DNA from: a virus
IMG/VR virus record: IMGVR_UViG_3300034407_003054
Coordinates: 1-48,320 of that record
Length of the DNA: 48,320 nt
Strand: one strand, 5' to 3'
The stretch's first letter is position 1. Each line of letters starts with the position of its first letter. Below are positions 6,316 to 33,388 of this stretch, piece after piece. Below the pieces are notes generated by a model that searched no databases, was not told where the DNA came from, and saw nothing but the letters and a program-made list of their open reading frames with translations. The position numbers were made by a program, and so were the translations under genes.

Positions 6316-6997
6316 TATCTTGGATAAAGGATACATTGAATTAGTGGATACACTTGGTGATGACTTAACACCTGTAAATGCCGCTCGTGTATCATTTGGT
6401 GGTAGGAGTGATAAATTTGAGAGTAAAGATAGAAAACTATCTAAGTTCTTAATTAAACACAAACACTTTTCACCATTCAGACATCAACATGGTATGTTTA
6501 TTATAAAGGCACCAGAGTTTGTAATGAGACAATGGTACAAACATGTCGTTGGTATTGAAACCACAAGTAATCATCCTACTAAAGACCATGCTTGGAATGA
6601 GATAAGTGGTCGTTATGTTCCATATGATGAGTTCTATGAACCAACAGAGTTTAGAAAACAATCAGAAGATAACAAACAGGCAAGTGATGGATTGATTGAA
6701 TTACAAGATAGTACAAGATTATTATGGATGACTGCACAACAAAATTCTATATCTGCATATAACGAAATGTTAAAACGAGGAATGGCAAAAGAACAAGCTC
6801 GTAGTATATTACCACTTACGGTTTATACAAAAGTATGGTGGACTGCATCATTTCAAAGTATTATGAACTTTATTGAGTTAAGAGATGAACCAACATCACA
6901 AGTGGAGATACAAGAATATGCACGAGGGTTAAAGGAAATCATGTTGGAGACATTTCCTGAAACTACTAAATTATGGAGTGAGATTTATTTAGACTAA
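6305..6997 (+). CDS. thyX: Flavin-dependent thymidylate synthase ThyX
   Basis: ThyX makes dTMP from dUMP using methylenetetrahydrofolate, FAD and NADPH. The 230-residue protein carries FSPFRH (55-60), RQWYKH (75-80) and WNEISGRY (97-104). These are the ThyX blocks, but the usual contiguous RHRxxSxNExSxRY signature is split: about 11 extra residues separate the RQW..H part from the NExSxRY part. The C-terminal RSILPLTVYTKVWWT block, with its conserved Arg and Leu, is normal. I chose the ATG at 6305 because AGGAG lies 8 nt upstream; a longer reading from GTG 6296 would put the start on the ribosome site itself. The gene overlaps the nucleotidyltransferase gene by 11 nt and ends in TAATG with the next gene. 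Confidence 0.88.
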   Translation: MKIDILDKGYIELVDTLGDDLTPVNAARVSFGGRSDKFESKDRKLSKFLIKHKHFSPFRHQHGMFIIKAPEFVMRQWYKHVVGIETTSNHPTKDHAWNEISGRYVPYDEFYEPTEFRKQSEDNKQASDGLIELQDSTRLLWMTAQQNSISAYNEMLKRGMAKEQARSILPLTVYTKVWWTASFQSIMNFIELRDEPTSQVEIQEYARGLKEIMLETFPETTKLWSEIYLD

Positions 6998-7881
6998 TGA
7001 AAGGTTGGATATTCACAACGCAAAACACACCATCATACGAAACAAAAAGGTTACTTGAATGTTTTGATAATGAAGGTATAGAATGTTTTTCTGTACATCC
7101 TAATAGTGTGGATATATTTATCAGTAAAGATAATAAAAAATCTGTGTTAGTAGATAATGAATATACATCTATTCCTGATTTTGTAATACCAAGAGTTGGA
7201 AGTGCAACCACATATTATCAGAAAGCAGTATACAGACATTTAGAACGAATGGGTGTGTTATTTATTAATGGTAGTGATGCAATTGATAATGTAAAAGATA
7301 AACTTTACACTATGCAAATATTATCACAAAATAATATTCCACATCCAAAAACAATGTTGGTTAAGAATCCAATTGATTCAAGTTATGTAGAAAGAAACAT
7401 CGGATTTCCTATTGTGGTTAAATCACTAAGTGGTACTCACGGAAAGGGTGTTTATCTTGCAGATAATAAAAGAAACTTTGAACAATTAGTAGAGATGATG
7501 GAACAATTTAATGATAGATTTAATATCATCTTACAAGAGTTTGTTAAGGATTCACATGGAAAAGATTTAAGAATTATCGTAGTAGGTGGTAAAGTTATTG
7601 GAGCAATGAAAAGAGAATCAACCGATGGTGATTTCAGAGCTAATGTTACACGAGGTGGTGGAGCAAAACCAGTAGAACTTGATGAACAAATGGAATATCT
7701 CGCATTAGAATCTACAAAGATATTAGGATTAGATATCGGTGGTGTAGATTTATTATATGATGGTGATAGTTACAAAATATGTGAGGTTAATTCTTCACCT
7801 GGTTTCAATGGAATGGAAAAATATACTGAAATAAGAGTTGCCGAACAGATAGTTACTTATGTAAAAAATAAATTAAATTAA
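6997..7881 (+). CDS. RimK-like ATP-grasp ligase
   Basis: A 294-residue ATP-grasp enzyme. An N-terminal pre-ATP-grasp part (1-95) with PDFVIPRVG is followed by DKLYTMQILSQNNIPHPKT (about 104-122), the K-loop FPIVVKSLSGTHGKGV (about 134-149), the QEFV segment, DLRIIVVGGKVIGAMKR (about 193-209) and the metal-binding end GVDLLY...ICEVNSSPGF. This order is that of RimK/LysX glutamate ligases, which add glutamate or another amino acid to a protein C-terminus, lysine-biosynthesis carrier or cofactor using ATP. All catalytic features appear intact. Start and stop are both TAATG overlaps with neighbours. Target unknown; the adjacent genes do not include an obvious carrier protein. Confidence 0.82.
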   Translation: MKGWIFTTQNTPSYETKRLLECFDNEGIECFSVHPNSVDIFISKDNKKSVLVDNEYTSIPDFVIPRVGSATTYYQKAVYRHLERMGVLFINGSDAIDNVKDKLYTMQILSQNNIPHPKTMLVKNPIDSSYVERNIGFPIVVKSLSGTHGKGVYLADNKRNFEQLVEMMEQFNDRFNIILQEFVKDSHGKDLRIIVVGGKVIGAMKRESTDGDFRANVTRGGGAKPVELDEQMEYLALESTKILGLDIGGVDLLYDGDSYKICEVNSSPGFNGMEKYTEIRVAEQIVTYVKNKLN

Positions 7882-15466: not shown

Positions 15467-15644
15467 AAAGAGAAAATACCATAGTGAAAAAGAAAGACGA
15501 GATGCTCAAAGAAAATGGCAGATGGAACATTACAAAAGAAATGCAGATGAGATAAGAGCAAAGGCTCGTCAAAAATATCGTGATAAGAAAAGAAAAGAGT
15601 TTTATGACAAGAAAGTACAAGATATGTATGGGAACATTGAGTGA
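15459..15644 (+). CDS. Small, very basic helical protein
   Basis: A 61-residue protein, almost all Lys, Arg, Glu, Gln and Tyr (MGRKRKYHSEKERRDAQRKW at the start, then a KARQKYRDKKRKEFYDKK stretch). It is likely one long basic helix and resembles the DNA-contacting helical part of HNH proteins without the HNH core. It overlaps RNase H by 8 nt and the radical SAM gene by 4 nt (GTGA), so it is embedded in the operon. A nucleic-acid-binding role is inferred from composition only. Confidence 0.5.
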   Translation: MGRKRKYHSEKERRDAQRKWQMEHYKRNADEIRAKARQKYRDKKRKEFYDKKVQDMYGNIE

Positions 15645-16771
15645 GTAAAAGTAAAACATTTTGTCCCTTACCTTTTGTACATTTGTATGCACAACCTTCA
15701 GGTCATGTGAAACCTTGTTGTATTGCAGAAACTATACATACTCACAATTTAAACAAAGAATCCATAGGTGAAGTATTTAATTCTGAAGAGATGAAGAAAC
15801 TTCGTATGGATATGTTAAATGGTGAGAGAAACAAATTATGTGACATTTGTTATCTCGCAGAGGATAGAGGTGAGGTAAGTGCACGACAAGGATTTTTAGA
15901 ACCAGATAACAATGAATTTGAAATACCAAAGACTACTGATGGTGAAGTTCCATTAGAGTTTCAGTATATTGATATTAGGTTTTCAAATCAATGTAATTTT
16001 AAATGTAGAACATGTTGTCATGATTTCTCATCATCTTGGTATGAACCTGAAATGTTATTAGGTGGAATATCACCTGATGTTAATAAGGTTATTAAAGTAG
16101 AAAATAACTTTATGGAAAATCTTAAGAAACATTTGGGTAAACTTAAGAAGATATATTTTGCAGGTGGTGAACCTTTGATTATGCCAGAACACATGGATAT
16201 CCTAAAGTTTGTTACTGATAATGAATTAAAATTACATTTACATTATAATTCTAACATGTCTACTTTAAAATACCAAGAGGAATCATTGTTCAAATATTGG
16301 AACAAGATAAAAGAAAAAGGTACTATCTATATTGCAGTATCTTGTGATGGTTTATATGACTTAGGTGAATATATCAGAGTAGGTTTCAATCATGATAAGT
16401 TCGTAAAGAATATAGAAAAATTAAAAGAAAATGATATTCACTATGGAATTCAATATACCGTATCCACATATAACATACATCACATATTTGAATCAATTGA
16501 ACAATTCCTTGATTTAGGTATTATTGAGAGTACCGATGATATATCATTTCATTATGCATGGGCACCTGATGGAGTATGTATACAGAATTTACATGAAAGA
16601 GATAAGTTCAAAGTTACAAATACCTTTGAAAAAAATATGAATAAAGTTACAGAAAAAACAAAAGTGGAGTTAAATAATATCCTAAAGTTTATGGGAACAG
16701 AAAGTGGAAATCATAAAGAAATAAAAGACTATTATGATAAAATAAATCGTGTGTTTCCGAAATCTAAATGA
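15641..16771 (+). CDS. Radical SAM protein with N-terminal twitch/SPASM-like part
   Basis: A 376-residue radical SAM enzyme. An N-terminal Cys-rich part (FCPLPFVHLYAQPSGHVKPC; Cys8, 26, 27, 67 and 70) may hold an auxiliary cluster, and the radical SAM motif CNFKCRTC has Cys118, 122 and 125, followed by YFAGGEPLIMPEH, the GGEP motif that binds SAM. This arrangement is the twitch-domain radical SAM family that I know from marine T4-like phages; reaction unknown, though SPASM-type members modify peptides. Translation starts at GTG 15641, overlapping the upstream TGA. It is inserted between RNase H and the helicase gene, which are DNA replication genes. Confidence 0.78.
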   Translation: MSKSKTFCPLPFVHLYAQPSGHVKPCCIAETIHTHNLNKESIGEVFNSEEMKKLRMDMLNGERNKLCDICYLAEDRGEVSARQGFLEPDNNEFEIPKTTDGEVPLEFQYIDIRFSNQCNFKCRTCCHDFSSSWYEPEMLLGGISPDVNKVIKVENNFMENLKKHLGKLKKIYFAGGEPLIMPEHMDILKFVTDNELKLHLHYNSNMSTLKYQEESLFKYWNKIKEKGTIYIAVSCDGLYDLGEYIRVGFNHDKFVKNIEKLKENDIHYGIQYTVSTYNIHHIFESIEQFLDLGIIESTDDISFHYAWAPDGVCIQNLHERDKFKVTNTFEKNMNKVTEKTKVELNNILKFMGTESGNHKEIKDYYDKINRVFPKSK

Positions 16772-20338: not shown

Positions 20339-20364
20339 ACAAGTAAACAAACAAGGAGATGATT

Positions 20365-23103
20365 ATGAACTATCGTAATCTTATCGCATCTGTAGTACTT
20401 ATGACTGGATTGTTCGCACAATCTATTCACGGAGTTATTACTGATGTAGACTCAAATCCACTTGAAGGAGCTAATGTTGTAGTTGTTGGGACAGATTTAG
20501 GTGCAGTATCTAATGAATTAGGTATCGCACATATTGAAATTCCAGCTGGAACCTACGATGTAACTGCTTCTTTTATTGGTTACTCTACTCTAACTCAATC
20601 AGTTGTAGTTGGAGAGGGTATGGCTACATTAAATTTCATATTGGATTTTGATGTGGTTGAACTAACAGATGTAGAGGTGTTAGCATCTCGTGCATCTGAA
20701 ACTACACCTGTTGCTTACACTAATGTTAGTAAAGAAGAAATGGAAGTGAGATTAGGTTCTCAAGATATTCCAATGATTCTTAATACTACACCAAGTGTAT
20801 ATGCGACTCAACAAGGTGGTGGTGCGGGTGATGCTCGTATCAACATTCGTGGTTTCAATCAAAGAAATGTTGCAGTGATGATTAATGGTGTTCCCCAAAA
20901 TGATATGGAGAATGGATGGGTTTATTGGTCTAATTGGGATGGTGTAGGTGATGCTACATCTTCAATTCAGGTTCAAAGAGGTCTATCAGCTGTTAATCTT
21001 GCTACACCTTCTATTGGTGGAACTATGAATATAATTACCGACCCAACATCATTTGAAAAGGGTGGGAAGTTCAAACAAGAAGCTGGTGATGGTGGTTTTC
21101 TGAAAACTACTTTCAACTATAATACTGGTCTCATTTTAAATGACAAGTTGGCTTTGAGTGGAACTATTGTTCGTAAAACTGGTGATGGAATCATTGATGG
21201 AACTTGGACAGACGCTTGGGCATACTACTTTGGTGGTAGTTATGCAGTAAGTGAAAACCAACGATTTGAATTATATGCCATCGGTGCTCCACAACGACAT
21301 GGACAGAATCTATACAAACAGAATATTGCAACTTACTCACAAGAGTTAGCTGGTGATACAGATGGATATGATACTGATGCATTTGCAGAAGGTAACAAAT
21401 TCCAAACTGAAGCTGGTAGATTTTTCAATCAGAATGTCGCACCAATTGACCCATCATATACAGGTAAACAATATTGGTATATGTATGGTGCAAATAAATC
21501 CAATAGGTTCAACAAGAACTTCTTGAACGAAAGAGAAAACTTCTTCCATAAACCATTAGTGAATTTAAATCACTTCTTAACTATCAATGATAAAACAAGA
21601 TTAAGTTCTGTTTTATATTGGAGTGGTGGTTCTGGTGGTGGTACTGGTACATATGGTAGTGTATCAAGACAACCAGCAGTTGAAGGAGAAAGATGGTATG
21701 CAAGTTCACCTTGGACTTGGGATTGGAATGCAGAGATTGCACAAAATTCCGACAACATTGATGAGAACTTTTCTACTACTGAAAATCGTTCAACAGGAAT
21801 TCTTCGTAATTCTATCAACAGACAAGATACATATGGTTTGATTTCAAAATTAAACTACGATGTAAGTGATGTTTTAGCATTACAAGTTGGATTAGATTGG
21901 AGAACTGCTCGTATAGAACACGCTCGTGAAGTTCGTGATTTATTGGGTGGTGATTATTATGTTGATTATGCAGACGATAACTTTGAAGAAGGTAAAGTCG
22001 TTAGACTCGGTGACGAGATTGCATATCACAATGAAACAACCGTAGATTGGATTGGTGGATTTGTCCAAGGTAACTACACAACAGAAAAACTAAACCTATA
22101 TGGTATGGGTGGTGTTTCTTCTATTGAGTATAGTTATCAAGACCATTTCACTATAGAGGATGCAGTAGTAACTGCAGACCCAATCACTACTTACCAAGTT
22201 AAAGGTGGTGCATTATATAATGTAAATGAGAACCTTGGAGTATTCATCAATAGTGGATATGTCCAAAAGGCTCCCATTTTAGATAATGTTATTACTTTTG
22301 ATGGAACCGTAGCAACCGACCCTGATAATGAGAAATTCTTACATAATGAGTTTGGTGCAAACTTCGGTACACAAAAACTTGGAGTTAGAGTTAGTGCATA
22401 CAATACTGATTGGCAAGATAGGAACCTTACAAAATCTGTACAAACAGGTCAAGGTTCATCAGGTGATACTGATGTTATCTTCCTAAAAGGTGTAAATCAG
22501 AAACACCAAGGTCTTGAGATTGAAACTAAGATTCAACCAAATGATATGGTAGAACTTGACTTAATCGCAAGTTTTGGTAATTGGAAATTTGATGGTGATG
22601 CCGATGGTACTTACCAAGAAAATGAGTACAATGATGAAGGCCAAGTGATTGGTTATCAGACTACTGATTATGCATATGCACTTGATGGATTATATGTTGG
22701 TGATATGCCACAGACTGCCTATATTTTAGGTGTTACTCTTAAACCGATTAAAGGATTAAGATTACAGGCATTGTACAAAACATATGACAAAAACTATTCT
22801 GATTGGTCGCCATCAGCTCGTGAATTTGACGGAACGAATGACGACGCAGATAGAAGTCAAGTATGGGAAGCCCCAGGTTACTCAAAACTTGACTTACACG
22901 CATCATATAAACTTCCTATCAAGGGATACGACATTTCTTTAAATGCTCATGTATTCAACGCACTTGATGAAGTATTTGTACAAGATGCAGTTGATAATAG
23001 TCAATACAATGGTTATGGTTCTAAGGAACACTTAGCACATAACGCAGAAGTATTCTTGGGTACACCAAGATATGCAAACATTGGAGTTTCTATTAACTTC
23101 TAA
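20365..23103 (+). CDS. TonB-dependent outer-membrane receptor
   Basis: A 912-residue complete TonB-dependent receptor. Residues 1-19 (MNYRNLIASVVLMTGLFAQS) form a Sec signal peptide; 20-95 is a carboxypeptidase-regulatory-like beta domain (GVITDVDSNPLEGANVVVVG); a TonB-box-like ELTDVEVLA lies near 99-107; the plug spans about 115-230 with INIRGFNQRNVAVMINGVPQ; the rest is a 22-strand-type barrel ending in NIGVSINF with the terminal Phe of the BAM signal. Such receptors import scarce nutrients in FCB bacteria. ATG 20365 fits AAGGAG at 20353-20358; ATG 20359 directly abuts it. Ala GCT and Arg CGT codons look commoner than in the neighbouring phage genes, which suggests capture from a host. A terminator follows. 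Confidence 0.93.
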   Translation: MNYRNLIASVVLMTGLFAQSIHGVITDVDSNPLEGANVVVVGTDLGAVSNELGIAHIEIPAGTYDVTASFIGYSTLTQSVVVGEGMATLNFILDFDVVELTDVEVLASRASETTPVAYTNVSKEEMEVRLGSQDIPMILNTTPSVYATQQGGGAGDARINIRGFNQRNVAVMINGVPQNDMENGWVYWSNWDGVGDATSSIQVQRGLSAVNLATPSIGGTMNIITDPTSFEKGGKFKQEAGDGGFLKTTFNYNTGLILNDKLALSGTIVRKTGDGIIDGTWTDAWAYYFGGSYAVSENQRFELYAIGAPQRHGQNLYKQNIATYSQELAGDTDGYDTDAFAEGNKFQTEAGRFFNQNVAPIDPSYTGKQYWYMYGANKSNRFNKNFLNERENFFHKPLVNLNHFLTINDKTRLSSVLYWSGGSGGGTGTYGSVSRQPAVEGERWYASSPWTWDWNAEIAQNSDNIDENFSTTENRSTGILRNSINRQDTYGLISKLNYDVSDVLALQVGLDWRTARIEHAREVRDLLGGDYYVDYADDNFEEGKVVRLGDEIAYHNETTVDWIGGFVQGNYTTEKLNLYGMGGVSSIEYSYQDHFTIEDAVVTADPITTYQVKGGALYNVNENLGVFINSGYVQKAPILDNVITFDGTVATDPDNEKFLHNEFGANFGTQKLGVRVSAYNTDWQDRNLTKSVQTGQGSSGDTDVIFLKGVNQKHQGLEIETKIQPNDMVELDLIASFGNWKFDGDADGTYQENEYNDEGQVIGYQTTDYAYALDGLYVGDMPQTAYILGVTLKPIKGLRLQALYKTYDKNYSDWSPSAREFDGTNDDADRSQVWEAPGYSKLDLHASYKLPIKGYDISLNAHVFNALDEVFVQDAVDNSQYNGYGSKEHLAHNAEVFLGTPRYANIGVSINF

Positions 23104-26954: not shown

Positions 26955-28174
26955 TGTATTTATCGTACTTTGACAAATTCTATGATATGGAACCTTATCT
27001 TTTCATAGATGAGGTTGAGTGGGAGTATATCAAAAACACCTTTGATAAACAAGATGTAAGAGAGAGTCTTGCAAAGGTCGCGATGTCCTACCCACCACCA
27101 TACATGGATATATCCGAAAAGGATGCATTAAAACAACTTCAGAAACTAAAAGGAATGAGACATAATGAAATTTTAGTTGAAGGAGAATGGTTTGCTCGTG
27201 AGGGTACAGAGTACAGATATGATTTAACTTTTGAGGGTAAACAACAATACTTCAAAAGAAATAATACAGGTAATGATTCAAGTAATTATTTCCAACAGAA
27301 GAATCGTTGGAGTGTTGATGGTACAATTGCACCTGGCCCACATAGAACATGGGAAAGTCATAAGTTTATGACAACATTAATTGGGTCTGCATACTCTCTA
27401 AAGTTACCTAAGATTGATAAGAGTGCATTTCGTGTAATGATTGGATTGAGAAAATATATTTGTTCTCAATTTAAACCAAATGTTGCAAAGGTATTGTATG
27501 ATAAGTTAGAGAGTAAAAGTATCTTAGACTTTAGTGCAGGTTGGGGTGATAGACTTGCAGGATTCTATGCAAGTGAAACAGGTGAGTTTTACATGGGTAT
27601 AGACCCACGAAAAGAAAATCATCCCATCTATGAAGAACAGAAACAATTTTATGATAAACATAGAACTATGTTTGAAGTTCCTAAGAAAAGTTTATTTATA
27701 GAATCACCTGCAGAGGACTTTGAATACAAAGAAAATATGTATGATACCGTATTTACATCACCACCTTACTTTAGTGTTGAGAGATATAGTTATGATGATA
27801 CTCAGAGTTGGGTAAGATATAAAGATATTGATACATGGAATACTCAGTTCTTACAAAAAACATTAGAAAAAATCTGGCCTTCTATAAAAAGTGGTGGATA
27901 TTTATTAGTGAATATTGCAGATGTATTTGCACGAACAGGTGGACAAAGAAACATGGTAGAGATATGTAATCCTATGAATGATTTCTTAAGTACACTTAGT
28001 GATTCAGAGTATCAAGGTTGTATTGGTATGGAGATGGCAAAGAGACCGAATAGTGGTGGTGCAGGAATGGCACGAGAGTCAGATGAAAGGTTTCAAGACT
28101 CTACAATAAAAAGAGCAGAAGAAACTAAAGATAAAAGATTTTGTGAACCAATTTGGATTTGGAGAAAGTTATAA
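26954..28174 (+). CDS. DNA methyltransferase-like protein (SPPY motif)
   Basis: A 406-residue Rossmann-fold methyltransferase. SILDFSAGWGDRLAG (about 189-203) is the SAM-binding motif I, GIDPRKEN is motif II, and VFTSPPYFSVERY (about 268-280) is the motif IV SPPY catalytic loop of amino-methyltransferases acting on adenine N6 or cytosine N4. The N-terminal 150 residues could recognise the target. No restriction enzyme is adjacent, so it probably protects phage DNA or modifies it for other reasons. It is coupled to gp45 and gp44 on both sides by TAATG overlaps, an unexpected place between clamp and loader. Confidence 0.75.
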   Translation: MYLSYFDKFYDMEPYLFIDEVEWEYIKNTFDKQDVRESLAKVAMSYPPPYMDISEKDALKQLQKLKGMRHNEILVEGEWFAREGTEYRYDLTFEGKQQYFKRNNTGNDSSNYFQQKNRWSVDGTIAPGPHRTWESHKFMTTLIGSAYSLKLPKIDKSAFRVMIGLRKYICSQFKPNVAKVLYDKLESKSILDFSAGWGDRLAGFYASETGEFYMGIDPRKENHPIYEEQKQFYDKHRTMFEVPKKSLFIESPAEDFEYKENMYDTVFTSPPYFSVERYSYDDTQSWVRYKDIDTWNTQFLQKTLEKIWPSIKSGGYLLVNIADVFARTGGQRNMVEICNPMNDFLSTLSDSEYQGCIGMEMAKRPNSGGAGMARESDERFQDSTIKRAEETKDKRFCEPIWIWRKL

Positions 28175-29097
28175 TGGATGAAATTAAAAATTCCCTATGG
28201 GTAGAAAAGTACCGACCTACAAGTCTTGACACTTATATAGGTAATGAACACCTAAAAAGTAAGGTCAAGTTATATCTTGAGAGTGGAGATTTACCACACC
28301 TTCTATTGTTTGGTAGGGCTGGTACAGGTAAAACCACTCTCGCTAAGTTACTCGTCAATAACATTGAATGTGATTATCTATACATCAATGCATCTGATGA
28401 GAGAAAACTTGAAATGGTAAGAGACAAAGTAAAAAACTTTGCCTCTACTATTGGGTTTTCAAATATGAAAGTTGTGATTCTTGATGAGGCAGATTACATT
28501 ACACCTGCATCACAGGCCGCTCTTCGTAATCTTATGGAAACTTTCTCAAAACATTGTAGGTTTATCTTAACTTGTAATTATGTTGAGAGAATCATTGACC
28601 CAATACAATCAAGGTGTCAATCATTTCAGATTATTCCACCAGATAGGAAACAAGTTGCAGTACATCTAAGTGATATCCTACAAAAAGAAAAGGTTAATGC
28701 AAAGGTTGATGATATTGTAACAATAGTTAATAGTGGTTTTCCTGATTTAAGAAGAGTAATCAATGGTGCACAGAGACAAGTCGTGGATGGTAAGTTGGTC
28801 ATTGATGAGGGAATGAGTATACAAAATGACTATAAGGTAAAGGTATTAGAGATACTCAAGACACAAGACAAAAAGAATTCTTTTAAGAATATAAGACAAG
28901 TACTGGCAGATTCAAAGGTAACAGATTTCTCTGATTTATTCAGATTGTTATTTGATACCGTAGATGATTGGGGTAAAGGTCATGTTGCAGAATGTATATT
29001 GGTATTAAGTCAATATCAACAAAGTGACGCAGTAGTAGTAGATAAAGAGATAAACATTATGGCGATGTTTATAGAAGTATTAGGAGTAATAAAATGA
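28174..29097 (+). CDS. 44: Clamp loader large subunit gp44
   Basis: A 307-residue AAA+ ATPase that opens the gp45 ring. Walker A GRAGTGKT is at 47-54, Walker B VILDEAD at 101-107, and the SRC motif (QSRCQSF) with the arginine finger near 148. ATG 28174 is chosen over TTG 28153 because GGAG lies 9 nt upstream and the ATG overlaps the preceding TAA. The start motif WVEKYRPTSLDTYIG is standard for RFC-type loaders. Its partner gp62 lies 3.9 kb downstream, separated by an accessory cassette. Confidence 0.93.
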   Translation: MDEIKNSLWVEKYRPTSLDTYIGNEHLKSKVKLYLESGDLPHLLLFGRAGTGKTTLAKLLVNNIECDYLYINASDERKLEMVRDKVKNFASTIGFSNMKVVILDEADYITPASQAALRNLMETFSKHCRFILTCNYVERIIDPIQSRCQSFQIIPPDRKQVAVHLSDILQKEKVNAKVDDIVTIVNSGFPDLRRVINGAQRQVVDGKLVIDEGMSIQNDYKVKVLEILKTQDKKNSFKNIRQVLADSKVTDFSDLFRLLFDTVDDWGKGHVAECILVLSQYQQSDAVVVDKEINIMAMFIEVLGVIK

Positions 29098-29324
29098 ATG
29101 ACGAAAGACAATATCAAGAACCATTAGATATTTCAAAGGCAGATACAATTCAATGTGAAGAGTGTGGAAACGCATCCTTTATACAATCGTTCTTTTTGAA
29201 AAGAGTATCAGCATTGATGAGTCCAAATGGTAAAGAAGCAATTATACCAATACAAGTATTCGCTTGTGGTAATTGTGGTTCAATACCAAAGAATATGATG
29301 AGTCAAATTCAACCGAGTGAGTAA
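29094..29324 (+). CDS. Zinc-ribbon protein
   Basis: A 76-residue protein with CEEC (about 21-24) and CGNC (about 56-59), a two-knuckle zinc ribbon with 31 residues between the knuckles. Such small ribbons follow clamp-loader genes in other T4-like marine phages as I remember them; in T4-type transcription, small zinc proteins can contact polymerase, but no function can be assigned here. It has TAGGAG before its start, overlaps gp44 by 4 nt, and its stop overlaps the next start. Confidence 0.65.
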   Translation: MNDERQYQEPLDISKADTIQCEECGNASFIQSFFLKRVSALMSPNGKEAIIPIQVFACGNCGSIPKNMMSQIQPSE

Positions 29325-30736
29325 TGTATACTAAAGTTGGAGATGGACTACAAGTAGTAAGTGGTGACATAGTTAAGAGTTTAGTTGGTTTAGAGAATCT
29401 AACATACAAGATGTCAGAAGAATTCAACTCTGAAAGACTATGGACACCATCTCATCTTTCCATGGACAATGCCTACAAGACAGGATACATGGAATCATTC
29501 TCACATCAAGTATCTATAATTAATTCATACCATGGTGAAGAAAAAGGAATGTGTTCACCTACAGGATGTTATCATTGTTATAGTTTCTTAAAAGATAAAA
29601 GTGTTACAGATAAATCTTATGTAATGACAAGTAAATGTACACGAATAGAAGAAGAGTGCAATGATTTAGAAAGAATGTTTAATTTCACTATATCAGAGAT
29701 AGTGTTTGTTGGTACTGAGAAATATTGTGAGGATAATTTAAATAAAGCAATGACTTTAACATCACAAATGTTAGACCAACTTGGTATCAAATATTTTTAT
29801 GAAGTTGCATCAGACCCATTCTTTGGTGATAAATCAGAGTTAAAAAGAAAAGTACAAATCAAAAGTGGTTCTAAAATTGAGATTAGAGCATGGATTCCTA
29901 ACGAGGATAGACATGTTGCAATAGGTTCATTTAATCTACATGGTAGGAAGTTTATTGATAAATTTAGTATACAAGATTCAGAGATGACTGCATGTTTTGG
30001 TTGGGGATTAGAAAGATTTGTAGATGTTGTAAGTAAGTATGACAAAACCATAGATGAAACTAAAATCAATTTCAACTTCAAAAATGATAACACTTTTATA
30101 CCTGAAATTAGAAAAAATATAATTGATGATTCTAATGGTTGGTTATGTGATAACCATCAGACATATTGGTTTGGTAGAAAACCTATACATGAATATGAAA
30201 TCCAAACACCAGATATTGGTGAGGTTGTCTATGAAGACATTGATACACTTGAACAACTTGATGGGTGGACATGGGAAATTCTACAAGGACTCAAAGAGTG
30301 GGACAGATTGAACATGAAGTGGATTAACGAAGAGACAAGAAAAACTTGGTTATGGGATTTAGAAACTGCAAAGAAAAGAATACAAGATGGACACAATTTA
30401 TGTGCAATGTTTTACGAGGGTAAACTGATACAATGGAATTGGTGGTTTATGGGTGAATTTACTTTTTATGACCATGAGTGGAATATTGATATGAACTTAC
30501 CTAAAGACCATTCTTATGGTGGATATTGGGCATGTTTACCTAAATACAGAACTTCAAGAAAACATGGTAAACTGATAGAACATTTCTACACTTATATTAC
30601 AAACTATCTTATTAGAAAGAATATAAAATATGACTTGGCATATGTTGATGGTTGGAATAATAAGGCAATCAGTATACACAAGAAAATGGGATATGTGGGT
30701 TACAATTGGATGAAAAATGAAAACTTTCTCAAATAA
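29324..30736 (+). CDS. Amino-acid:carrier-protein-ligase-like domain fused to GNAT acetyltransferase
   Basis: A 470-residue two-domain protein. Residues 1-240 match the class II synthetase-like amino acid:[carrier protein] ligases: GCYHCYS (81-87), KCTRIEE (104-110, motif 2), EVASDPFFGDK (160-170), a GSFNLHG segment (201-207) and MTACFGWGLERF (221-232, motif 3). In that family the order ACxPxYP, CFRHE, DVAxDPFFG, SFNYHQ, ACxGFGLER is the hallmark. The third zinc ligand (Cys before the SFN motif) is Ile here. Residues 355-465 form a GNAT domain, with KYRTSRKHGKLIEHF for CoA binding and NKAISIHKKMGYVGY at the end. I know of no described fusion of this kind. It probably activates an amino acid and acylates something. 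Confidence 0.72.
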   Translation: MYTKVGDGLQVVSGDIVKSLVGLENLTYKMSEEFNSERLWTPSHLSMDNAYKTGYMESFSHQVSIINSYHGEEKGMCSPTGCYHCYSFLKDKSVTDKSYVMTSKCTRIEEECNDLERMFNFTISEIVFVGTEKYCEDNLNKAMTLTSQMLDQLGIKYFYEVASDPFFGDKSELKRKVQIKSGSKIEIRAWIPNEDRHVAIGSFNLHGRKFIDKFSIQDSEMTACFGWGLERFVDVVSKYDKTIDETKINFNFKNDNTFIPEIRKNIIDDSNGWLCDNHQTYWFGRKPIHEYEIQTPDIGEVVYEDIDTLEQLDGWTWEILQGLKEWDRLNMKWINEETRKTWLWDLETAKKRIQDGHNLCAMFYEGKLIQWNWWFMGEFTFYDHEWNIDMNLPKDHSYGGYWACLPKYRTSRKHGKLIEHFYTYITNYLIRKNIKYDLAYVDGWNNKAISIHKKMGYVGYNWMKNENFLK

Positions 30737-30751
30737 TCAATATTTATAGAT

Positions 30752-32173
30752 ATGAATGATTCACAAAGACAAACTTACGCAAATTTATTAAAAGAAAAAA
30801 GTTTACAGGTAGGAAATCTGTTTACTGGTAGTGCTTATTGGGATAGTGAACATGAGGGTATGATATATTCCATGGATTGGATACCACAAAGTGGTTCAAT
30901 AAAACTATTAGAAATGAACACCAATACTGGACTAAGTGGTAGAATGAAACCATATTTTAATTTTAGTGAATTAGTAAGTCATATTACAAGTTCTGGTCAT
31001 AATACATGTACTTATTACGAAGACTATCTAAACTTTAATATAGAACCACAAAGAGTTGAAGACACTTTAGATATTTTTAGACAACAACTTAGTTCAAGTT
31101 TGTCATCTTCAGGATGTACATTTACTCACGAGTATAATTTATGGGATGAGATTATCCCAACGCCATCTTCAACACATTATGTATTAAGACAAGGACATTT
31201 AAATTATCATAATGTTGATATATTATGTGAGAACAAGACTACATTTCGTAATTTTATAACAGGTAGTTTAGGTGAAGATTTCTTTCCTGCATTTGGTAGT
31301 AATATTTCATCGTCATTCAGTAATCCAACAAATGTACCTGATGTTGTTATCAAAGACCCAACTGAAGATATGGGTGTGGGTGTATCTTTTACAGACTTTA
31401 CAGACGATAGGAATCAAATTTATAATAATCATAATTATGTAGAGGAATATATTGAACCTGAAATAGACAATAATAGATATAGATTATTTAGAAGTATTAT
31501 ATTGATTGGTAGTGGTAGTGTTAAATATTTAATAAAGAATCCAACTTACACAATTAACTATAGAAAATTTGGACAACCAAGTGGTTCAGTTACAATTGGT
31601 TCACAATCCACTAATATTTATGATACCAATAATATAAGAATATGGCAGACAGGACATTATGAAGGTAATACACCAGTATCAATGTCAGATGGTTCGGTAA
31701 AAACAATTGGTAGTATAGATGCAGGTGATGTGGTTAAGAGTGTAGTGGTAAACAACTATCCAAAAAGAAACACTGCATTCAAGTCATCAACAACCAATGC
31801 ATCTTGGCCTCAATTCATTCTTGATAAGGGTAATTGGACAGGTTCAATCGGTGAGTTAAGTGAATCAACAAGTTCAGTCAATAGTGTCCCACAAGTATAT
31901 TCATGGGGATATTATGAGTTAAATGGTTCTACAAGAGTAAATCCTGAAGATTCTATTATGGTTTATGATAATTCAAAATATCAATTCAAACCAATGAGAA
32001 ATGTTCAAGTTAACGATGTTTTTGTTACAAAAGGATTTGTTACACAATCAGTATCATCTATAAACTTAGTGACTTCTGAATCTATATTTTATTCATTAGA
32101 TTTAGAAACAGAAGATAGATATTTTGCAGGTGATGATACTAATTCGGTTATAACTTCCGATAGTTATTGGTAG
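30752..32173 (+). CDS. ATP-grasp-like domain fused to a Hint domain without nucleophile
   Basis: A 473-residue protein. Near the N-terminus, YSMDWIPQSGSIKLLEMNTN (39-58) looks like the metal-binding end of an ATP-grasp enzyme (E.N motif), while VIKDPTEDMGVGV (199-211) and YVEEYIEPE (229-237) look like its ATP-binding part; the order would be a circular permutation. Residues 300-473 match a Hint fold: GNTPVSMSDGSVKTIGSI, DAGDVV, VNPEDSIMVYD (HPxxV-like block), NVQVNDVFV and IFYSLDLETEDRYFAG. The splicing Cys/Ser at position 1 is His302, and no terminal His-Asn is present, so self-splicing is unlikely. No ribosome site is seen 15 nt after the synthetase-like gene. Confidence 0.55.
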   Translation: MNDSQRQTYANLLKEKSLQVGNLFTGSAYWDSEHEGMIYSMDWIPQSGSIKLLEMNTNTGLSGRMKPYFNFSELVSHITSSGHNTCTYYEDYLNFNIEPQRVEDTLDIFRQQLSSSLSSSGCTFTHEYNLWDEIIPTPSSTHYVLRQGHLNYHNVDILCENKTTFRNFITGSLGEDFFPAFGSNISSSFSNPTNVPDVVIKDPTEDMGVGVSFTDFTDDRNQIYNNHNYVEEYIEPEIDNNRYRLFRSIILIGSGSVKYLIKNPTYTINYRKFGQPSGSVTIGSQSTNIYDTNNIRIWQTGHYEGNTPVSMSDGSVKTIGSIDAGDVVKSVVVNNYPKRNTAFKSSTTNASWPQFILDKGNWTGSIGELSESTSSVNSVPQVYSWGYYELNGSTRVNPEDSIMVYDNSKYQFKPMRNVQVNDVFVTKGFVTQSVSSINLVTSESIFYSLDLETEDRYFAGDDTNSVITSDSYW

Positions 32174-32176
32174 GGA

Positions 32177-32464
32177 ATGAGTTCTTACTTAGTCGGAAAT
32201 GTTATAATTAAAGATTTTTCTGAATACAGAAAGTATGAGAGAAGAATATTTCGTTATTTAAAAAAACATAATGGTAAATTACTTGTGTATGATGATAATC
32301 CAACATCAGTACAAGGTAATATAGATGGTAGGTTATTGATTATGGAGTTTCCAACTAAAAAAAATGCATTAGAATTTTGGAATGATGAAGATTATATAAA
32401 GATGTCGGAGAAATACAGATACCATTGTAGTGAAGTACAATTTGTAACTATAATAGGAGATTAG
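32177..32464 (+). CDS. DUF1330-family small protein
   Basis: A 95-residue ferredoxin-like alpha/beta-barrel type protein. The pattern YLVGNVIIKDFSEYRKYER, a central GRLLIMEFPTKKNALEFWND and a final strand SEVQFVTIIG matches DUF1330, a dimeric fold seen in small enzymes and binding proteins of unknown role. It lies 3 nt after the ATP-grasp/Hint gene and 1 nt before the GNAT gene, so it belongs to the same cassette. Possible role: binding an intermediate; nothing catalytic is visible. Confidence 0.65.
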   Translation: MSSYLVGNVIIKDFSEYRKYERRIFRYLKKHNGKLLVYDDNPTSVQGNIDGRLLIMEFPTKKNALEFWNDEDYIKMSEKYRYHCSEVQFVTIIGD

Positions 32465-32465
32465 T

Positions 32466-32957
32466 ATGTATGTATTAGAACATAAAGAGATTCCATTTAG
32501 TAGAATGGAAGAGATAAAAGAAGATACACCAGAGTTAGATATTTTTTATGAACCTGATATGAAAAACTTTGAATACTATGATTCCGATGGAACACCAATA
32601 GGAATGTATATTATTTACAGAAATGATAAAAAAAATGTTGTTTGCGGTAGGAACTATTATATTTATAAACAACAGAGAACTAAAGGTTGGGGTTTGAATT
32701 GTATACTATCTTGTATCAATTATTCCTTTCAATTATATCCAGATATTGATATATTTTGTTGGTCTACTCATGTAGGTAATAAAGTTATGGACAGAATATG
32801 TTCAAAGATATATGAGAAAACAAGGACAGAAACCAATAATCCAAATATATTTGGTTTCAATGAACCACCACCATCAGAGTTACATTCAGTTACACGAAAA
32901 TATATGGAAAACTTTAATAAAAAGTATCCAAAGGGTTTTAAAAGGTTTAAAATATGA
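32466..32957 (+). CDS. GNAT-like acyltransferase
   Basis: A 163-residue protein with the core of a GNAT fold: GTPIGMYIIYRNDKKNVVCG (strands 2-4), RTKGWGLNCILSCINYSF (about 70-87, the CoA-binding loop and helix), DIFCWSTHVGNKVMDRICSK (strand 5 and helix 4). The P-loop-like R.KGWG is close to the usual Q/RxxGxG/A. It may acylate the product or target of the cassette. It overlaps gp62 by 4 nt (ATGA). A second in-frame ATG lies at 32470; the first is used here. Confidence 0.6.
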   Translation: MYVLEHKEIPFSRMEEIKEDTPELDIFYEPDMKNFEYYDSDGTPIGMYIIYRNDKKNVVCGRNYYIYKQQRTKGWGLNCILSCINYSFQLYPDIDIFCWSTHVGNKVMDRICSKIYEKTRTETNNPNIFGFNEPPPSELHSVTRKYMENFNKKYPKGFKRFKI

Positions 32958-33388
32958 GTAAAGTTAAAGGTTTATTTGACCATGTAAAACAAATCACAAA
33001 TGTACAGAGTCCTACATATTGGGATACATTAAGTGAGGGTGATAAAAAGACATTTAGTAATTACATGATTCATAGATTTCTTAGTATGAAGTCAGAATGG
33101 ATTCAAGTTGTAAATGAGGTACAGAAATATTGGGAGTTGGCTCCTAAGAATGTGTATCAGTTTTATATTGATGTACTACCAAGAGGTAGAACTTTCCTTA
33201 AATACACAAAGTCAAAACATAAGTCAAAAGTAAATCCATGGGTTATGGAACACTTGACAGATTACTTTGAATGTAGTTCAAAAGAAGTAGATGATTACTT
33301 GGAGATATTGACACCACAACAAGTAAAGACAATCATAATGAAGTATGGTGTAGATGATAAACAATTAAAAACGATATGGAGTAAATAA
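32954..33388 (+). CDS. 62: Clamp loader small subunit gp62
   Basis: A 144-residue protein. The patterns IHRFLSMKSEWIQVVNEV, APKNVYQFYIDVLPRGRTF and DYFECSSKEVDDYLEILTPQ (residues about 38-120) fit the helical gp62 of T4-like marine phages, in which short helices end with a tripartite repeat. In T4 it completes the 4:1 gp44-gp62 loader. In T4 it directly follows gp44, whereas here five genes lie between them. Its stop overlaps the clpP start (TAATG). Confidence 0.72.
   Translation: MSKVKGLFDHVKQITNVQSPTYWDTLSEGDKKTFSNYMIHRFLSMKSEWIQVVNEVQKYWELAPKNVYQFYIDVLPRGRTFLKYTKSKHKSKVNPWVMEHLTDYFECSSKEVDDYLEILTPQQVKTIIMKYGVDDKQLKTIWSK

Follow-up and report, generated by a model that had tools for sequence, protein, structure and literature searches.

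A class II synthetase-like/GNAT fusion gene lies between two clamp-loader genes

The window that we analysed, by which we mean the whole stretch of DNA, is a 48,320-base viral record from a T4-like phage, whose DNA polymerase has its closest match among GenBank phages in Microcystis phage Mel-JY01 (45% identity). Two clamp-loader genes, encoding a gp44-like large subunit (28153..29097; phrog_168, E 8.5e-83) and a gp62-like small subunit (32954..33388; phrog_225, E 2.2e-17), form the left and right borders of a cassette in which all of the features described here lie on the plus strand. Within it, a small protein with two CxxC pairs (29094..29324), recognised by reading the sequence and conserved in related loci, is encoded directly upstream of the gene on which we focused, an ORF of 470 aa (29324-30736) that starts with ATG and is uninterrupted by in-frame stops. 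The ORF is followed by a gene for a Hint-type partner with a conserved N-terminal domain and a degenerate C-terminal Hint domain (30752..32173), identified through homologues in the related records L083 and L115 that match Hint families, and by two variable cargo genes, one for a DUF1330 protein (32177..32464; PF07045, 53.5 bits against a cut-off of 23) and one for a possible second GNAT-like protein (32466..32957) with weak Pfam GNAT matches (E 0.044).

Elsewhere, the window encodes a RimK-family ATP-grasp ligase (6997-7881; TIGR00768, 250 bits) and a twitch-domain radical SAM protein (15641-16771; NF033640, 312 bits), both above cut-off. A gene for a 914-aa TonB-dependent receptor-like protein (20359-23103; Plug, CarboxypepD_reg-like) adjoins the DNA polymerase gene and recurs among related contigs.

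The N-terminal half resembles amino acid:[carrier protein] ligases and keeps their active site

A sequence-only reading of this DNA had taken the 470-aa protein for an amino-acid activator fused to a GNAT domain. Its residues 1-245 (29324..30058) comprise a class II synthetase-like domain that is nearest to the amino acid:[carrier protein] ligases by NCBIfam, by its match to 3mey and by its predicted structure. The top NCBIfam match of this half was PRK07080, amino acid--[ACP] ligase (E 5.7e-27), although its 94.5 bits fall below the equivalog cut-off of 357 bits; the second was archaeal-type SerRS (E 2.7e-19), far below its equivalog cut-off. Pfam PF00587 was matched at 31.6 bits against a cut-off of 29.3, and a sequence search of the PDB gave 3mey, the Bradyrhizobium glycine:[carrier protein] ligase Bll0957, at E 8.5e-14 (E 6.2e-18 in the profile search). 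Comparison of a predicted structure with this same ligase had been suggested as a check on the sequence-only reading, and in an AlphaFold model of the full-length protein (mean pLDDT 75.7) the class II core spans residues 1-248 and has Bll0957 as its best structural match (VIA-align Z 20.9, rmsd 4.5, 233 aligned; Foldseek 1e-12). The proposed relation to these ligases is thus upheld by family, PDB and structural matches alike.

When Methanosarcina SerRS was compared with the model, the alignment began only near SerRS residue 200, indicating that the phage protein begins at the catalytic core, without the N-terminal tRNA-binding domain of archaeal-type SerRS. This result bears on a tRNA route, in which the class II domain would charge a tRNA and the GNAT domain would use the aminoacyl-tRNA, by analogy with Fem-type transferases. 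Such a route would fit the SerRS match of the N-terminal half and the use of aminoacyl-tRNA by some GNAT-fold enzymes (PMC5370406), but with the tRNA-binding domain missing and no tRNA genes in the window, we consider it very improbable.

The sequence-only reading had also held that one zinc ligand is lost, which proved to be wrong. The zinc ligands of Bll0957, which we take to be C131, E176 and C279, were reportedly assigned this role in 2010 work on the ligase; their numbers fit a 20-residue offset from positions 151, 196 and 299 of the 3mey chain. At the corresponding places the phage protein has three predicted zinc ligands, C82 in SPTGC (codon 29567..29569), E125 in FTISE (29696..29698) and C224 in TAC (29993..29995), all of which are identical in every phage and bacterial ligase aligned. 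This alignment comprised five phage and six bacterial proteins, and each of the 15 active-site positions checked (C82, R107, E109, E125, D164, F166, Q178, K184, E186, S202, N204, H206, C224, G228 and R231) was identical in 11/11. Since all 15 are conserved, the catalytic site of the phage class II domain looks intact.

The C-terminal half belongs to a phage GNAT family

We assigned residues 300-470 (30221..30733) to a GNAT domain from the topology of the model, a match to a phage GNAT family in hhalign (prob 99.2) and a family-profile score of 158 bits. Direct searches had not led there: the C-terminal half alone had no match in Pfam, attempts to recognise a GNAT with Pfam, phmmer and PDB profiles gave no match or none of significance, and direct hhalign to GNAT gave a prob of 27. 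In the full-length model, the order of strands and helices in this half is that of a GNAT, so the comparison with GNAT folds that had likewise been suggested as a check came out in favour of the claim, and the Foldseek matches of the model include several viral GNATs. The VIA-align fold search with the full-length model listed no GNAT, the class II half dominating its results.

The phage family came to light when relatives of the clamp-loader gene were sought, which gave 80 loci; many of these (L079-L121) hold a stand-alone protein of ~145-190 aa at the same place. A profile built from the stand-alone proteins, together with the GNAT portions of three larger ones, matched the C-domain of the fusion (profile-profile prob 99.2, E 2e-18). 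The same profile matched bacterial GNATs (prob 98.2, E 4e-13), and stand-alone members from L083 (24.5 bits) and L110 (32.5 bits) exceeded the PF00583 cut-off of 20.7. Because the C-terminal half matches the phage family, which in turn matches bacterial GNATs, we conclude that it is a GNAT domain.

The two GNAT motifs have fared differently in the fusion. Motif B, DGWNNKAISIHKKMGY (30647..30694), is in register with bacterial GNATs and keeps the pattern N..A...Y/H.K.G. At the position of motif A, the CoA pyrophosphate loop, the fusion has the degenerate CLPKYRTSRKHGKLI (30533..30577), aligned with YRNKGLGSDL of the stand-alone proteins; the Q/RxxGxG/A pattern is lost, with YRTSRKHGKLI or YRYKRGLLK in the fusions versus YRNKGLG in most stand-alone relatives. 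A different acyl donor is suggested by this degeneration, although the domain might also be non-catalytic.

The fusion is genuine, and the same GNAT is joined to other enzymes

Searches for other fusions, also proposed in the sequence-only reading, found two-domain ligase-GNAT proteins in 12 further records (L001-L006, L020, L021, L022, L024, L035 and L026), and the N-domain was fused to the GNAT domain in every viral contig in which it was found. Because the fusion recurs across records whose aligned members range from 95% down to 43% identity, assembly error is ruled out. By part, pairwise identity was 58-97% for the N-domain, 29-95% for the C-domain and 21-86% for the linker, for which we used residues 241-299 in this comparison. 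dN/dS was 0.07-0.23 for the N-terminal half and 0.08-0.21 for the C-terminal half, apart from a C-terminal value of 0.42 in the pair that has diverged most; the linker gave 0.23-0.59. These values are to be read with dS close to saturation for distant pairs. A fast-evolving linker, which we place at residues 246-299 (30059..30220), therefore separates the two domains, and the ORF is a true fusion with purifying selection on both halves. The fusion that had been claimed is accordingly real, with both folds supported and with intact copies in the 12 other records.

One of these copies, in L026 (NZWA01000089.1), lies on a 44-kb contig of the same phage type that was assigned to a Flavobacteriales MAG, either a hint at the host or a binning error. 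A host origin of the fusion was considered and rejected: a search of 294 further genomes from the class to which the MAG belongs gave no related gene, and the phage contig alone matched.

The same GNAT family also occurs with other partners. A QueC-like PP-loop domain follows an N-terminal GNAT in three proteins (L130 13157-14329, L137 9400-10566 and L153 15679-16869), and a tryptophan halogenase (L139 14603-16489; PF04820, E 1.5e-98) carries the GNAT at its C-terminus. Judged by these family assignments, one phage GNAT is joined to three unrelated enzymes, a class II ligase, a PP-loop enzyme and a halogenase, two of which come from ATP-using families.

The variety of partners raises the question of whether the GNAT might be a non-catalytic docking module that brings its partner enzymes to one shared target, for which the Hint protein is a candidate; the ligase domain itself would then transfer the amino acid, as PoxA does on EF-P. 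That one GNAT sits on three unrelated enzymes is consistent with docking, the halogenase fusion being the strongest hint, as are the loss of the CoA motif in the fusion and the near-constant position of the GNAT next to the Hint protein. However, most stand-alone GNATs keep a canonical CoA motif, which is the strongest hint for catalysis, their scores above the PF00583 cut-off likewise suggest catalysis in the family, and motif B is retained by the fusion itself. We therefore regard docking alone as quite unlikely.

The surrounding cassette varies between related phages

In ~30 related uncultured phages, the interval between the two clamp-loader genes holds a GNAT and a Hint-domain protein, in most cases with several 2OG-Fe(II) oxygenases. 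The phage-family GNAT was directly upstream of the long Hint-type protein in 31/42 cases and at most three genes away in 37/42, and two to five 2OG-Fe(II) oxygenases came after the Hint-type protein in 34/42, although near-identical records among the 42 cases mean that these numbers lack independence. Matches in L083 and L115 to PF07591, PF14890 and other Hint-related families give the Hint identity; the copy in the window is degenerate, and its cassette has no 2OG gene. The N-terminal domain of the Hint-type proteins gave weak ATP-grasp matches in 3/22 members (best E 0.0035) and is perhaps an ATP-grasp-like, possibly rearranged domain. Proteins of 450-896 aa share this domain, with the pattern D-W/Y...E.NTN, in L115 (6524-9202), L083 (11872-13632) and the window (30752-32173), and the L115 protein apparently contains several Hint domains. 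Serine-rich composition was weighed as possible evidence for a virion protein, but another phage protein was equally rich.

Other cargo in the relatives includes radical SAM proteins, a PIG-L deacetylase, an MFS transporter, QueC-like enzymes and a short ANL-type adenylating protein, together with SGNH-like and sulfotransferase-like proteins that were assigned mainly by eye. Across L079-L121, the interval between the gp44-like and gp62-like genes is a hot spot of biosynthetic cargo, with rows of 2OG-Fe(II) oxygenases alongside radical SAM, SGNH-like and sulfotransferase-like proteins. The short ANL-type protein (229-248 aa, with TTGSTGKPKEV; L001 4971-5660, L078 7084-7773 and L081 11601-12347) is roughly half as long as an ordinary ANL, and one such protein adjoins a stand-alone phage-family GNAT. 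In L035, 11361-12377 encodes what by eye is a glycine or inosamine amidinotransferase, with no Pfam match at E 0.01. Among 50,697 GenBank phage records, we found no relatives of one Hint-protein N-terminal domain and one family GNAT that were used as queries. From its predicted gene content, the cassette looks able to build or decorate a molecule.

Since the fusion gene sits among replication genes, we considered whether that molecule could be a nucleic acid, with the ligase supplying an aminoacyl donor and the GNAT adding the group to a phage DNA base or to RNA in a manner resembling Mom or thymidine hypermodification. There is a precedent in the Mom-family phage GNATs, which modify adenine, reportedly from glycyl-CoA or a similar donor (PMC7824862). 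However, although the location of the cassette varies little, cargo such as the Hint protein, the transporter and the deacetylase is unlike a base-modification pathway, and no base-modification enzyme was recognised beside the cassette, which makes nucleic-acid modification improbable.

Phage contigs lack a carrier gene and the phage ligases lack a segment of their bacterial relatives

The absence of a visible carrier protein had been pointed out for the window and was borne out more widely: no phosphopantetheine carrier turned up across 11 phage contigs, which are fragmentary, either with PF00550 or in a scan for the DSx motif. By comparison, four of the five annotated bacterial loci (on two Streptomyces plasmids and in Priestia and Rhizobium) name a carrier gene at most two genes from the ligase, and in the fifth, from Apilactobacillus, an unnamed 82-aa gene adjoins it. 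The Priestia plasmid locus has a ligase gene followed by a BtrH-type gene, a carrier gene and an ATP-grasp gene. In the gut 'phage' record MT835751, a bacterial-type amino acid:[carrier protein] ligase is adjoined by an 86-aa ORF with a DSLG motif, which we read as a probable carrier protein. The ligases themselves also differ, in that 24-31 extra residues directly before SPxxC in 6/6 bacterial proteins are absent from 5/5 phage proteins; one possibility is that carrier docking may have been lost with this segment.

These data can be set against a conventional role, in which a normal amino acid:[carrier protein] ligase would charge a host acyl carrier protein, or a carrier encoded off the contig, and the GNAT would take the aminoacyl group from the carrier. 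The closest relatives do use carrier proteins (the PRK07080 match; PMC9437257), and a carrier protein gene occurs in the genome to which L026 belongs. However, a carrier gene lies near the ligase in most annotated bacterial loci and in none of the 11 phage contigs, and the segment missing from the phage ligases may matter for the carrier, so we judge this conventional role rather unlikely.

The fusion may be a two-step amino-acid-transfer enzyme

We propose, at a probability of roughly 0.45, that the protein is a two-step amino-acid-transfer enzyme in a single polypeptide. Activation of an amino acid by the N-domain is likely, being predicted from the complete set of conserved active-site residues; the transfer and the acceptor of the aminoacyl group we infer. 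In the first step, the class II domain would bind zinc and use ATP to activate a small amino acid as aminoacyl-AMP, like the bacterial ligases. The aminoacyl group would then pass to a pantetheine thiol, most likely that of free CoA, or be used directly from the adenylate, and the GNAT domain would link it through an amide bond to an amine group of whatever product the cassette makes. The activate-then-transfer scheme of the sequence-only reading thus seems the most economical account of an apparently intact active site joined to a GNAT half.

Several observations favour this two-step scheme. The active-site positions are kept and both halves are under purifying selection, and the phage contigs show neither a carrier gene nor the bacterial segment before SPxxC. 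The known amino acid:[carrier protein] ligases take Gly and Ala as substrates and are able to load free CoA and cysteine as well; GNAT folds bind pantetheine, some forming peptide bonds from aminoacyl-tRNA (PMC5370406). The QueC-like PP-loop fusions and the ANL protein next to a stand-alone GNAT point in the same direction. Against it, the fused GNAT, with its degenerate CoA motif, may be inactive or unable to bind CoA, the halogenase partner needs no acyl transfer, and the contigs are fragmentary, such that a carrier gene may lie elsewhere. A more specific form of the two-step proposal, in which the protein would be an amide synthetase that works without ribosome, tRNA or carrier protein, via aminoacyl-CoA or aminoacyl-AMP handed to its own GNAT domain, within a modular cassette of a common GNAT and swappable enzymes beside a Hint protein and oxygenases, is possible, and we advance it tentatively.

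Relation to known systems and significance

Both halves come from known superfamilies, but in a limited literature search we found no description of the ligase-GNAT fusion, its phage setting or the swappable cassette. With the amino acid:[carrier protein] ligases, typified by Bll0957 of Bradyrhizobium (Mocibob 2010 and 2013, as cited in PMC9437257 and PMC5370406), the phage protein shares the class II core, the three zinc-ligand positions, the active-site residues and the lack of a tRNA-binding domain; unlike them, it is fused to a GNAT, has no nearby carrier gene, lacks the 24-31-residue segment and scores far under the equivalog cut-off. Similarly, it shares topology, motif B and profile matches with the GNAT superfamily and the stand-alone phage GNATs, from which it differs in its degenerate motif A and the attached class II ligase.

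Other comparisons are of concept or organisation. In butirosin-type systems, which consist of a ligase, a carrier and a BtrH-type transferase, BtrH transfers to an amine. There, as in the Priestia plasmid locus with its ligase-like gene beside a BtrH-type gene, an amino acid is activated and then moved to an amine, but by separate proteins and a carrier, whereas the phage has a single protein and no carrier was found. Fem-type and Leu/Phe aminoacyl transferases (PMC5370406) share with it the concept of a GNAT fold that makes peptide bonds from an activated amino acid; they take aminoacyl-tRNA, whereas the phage fusion has no visible tRNA-binding part, and the likeness is one of concept. Parts of PMC4431377 describe operons of ATP-grasp peptide ligases and GNATs, some in phages, that are predicted to add or cap peptide groups. 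These resemble the phage fusion in linking ATP-dependent ligases to GNATs, but the enzymes treated in those parts are ATP-grasp and COOH-NH2 ligases, in contrast with the class II synthetase that is joined to a GNAT here.

Both CoA thioesters and tRNA esters can be handled by the class II synthetase and GNAT folds, and it has been hypothesised that amino acid:[carrier protein] ligases and GNAT aminoacyl transferases are traces of thioester-based peptide synthesis that preceded coded translation (PMC5370406). A natural protein that unites the two folds makes this pre-translation thioester chemistry testable in one small enzyme, and, if active, the fusion could serve as a compact amide-forming tool. 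For the phages themselves, the cassette points to a biosynthetic capacity of uncultured marine phages.
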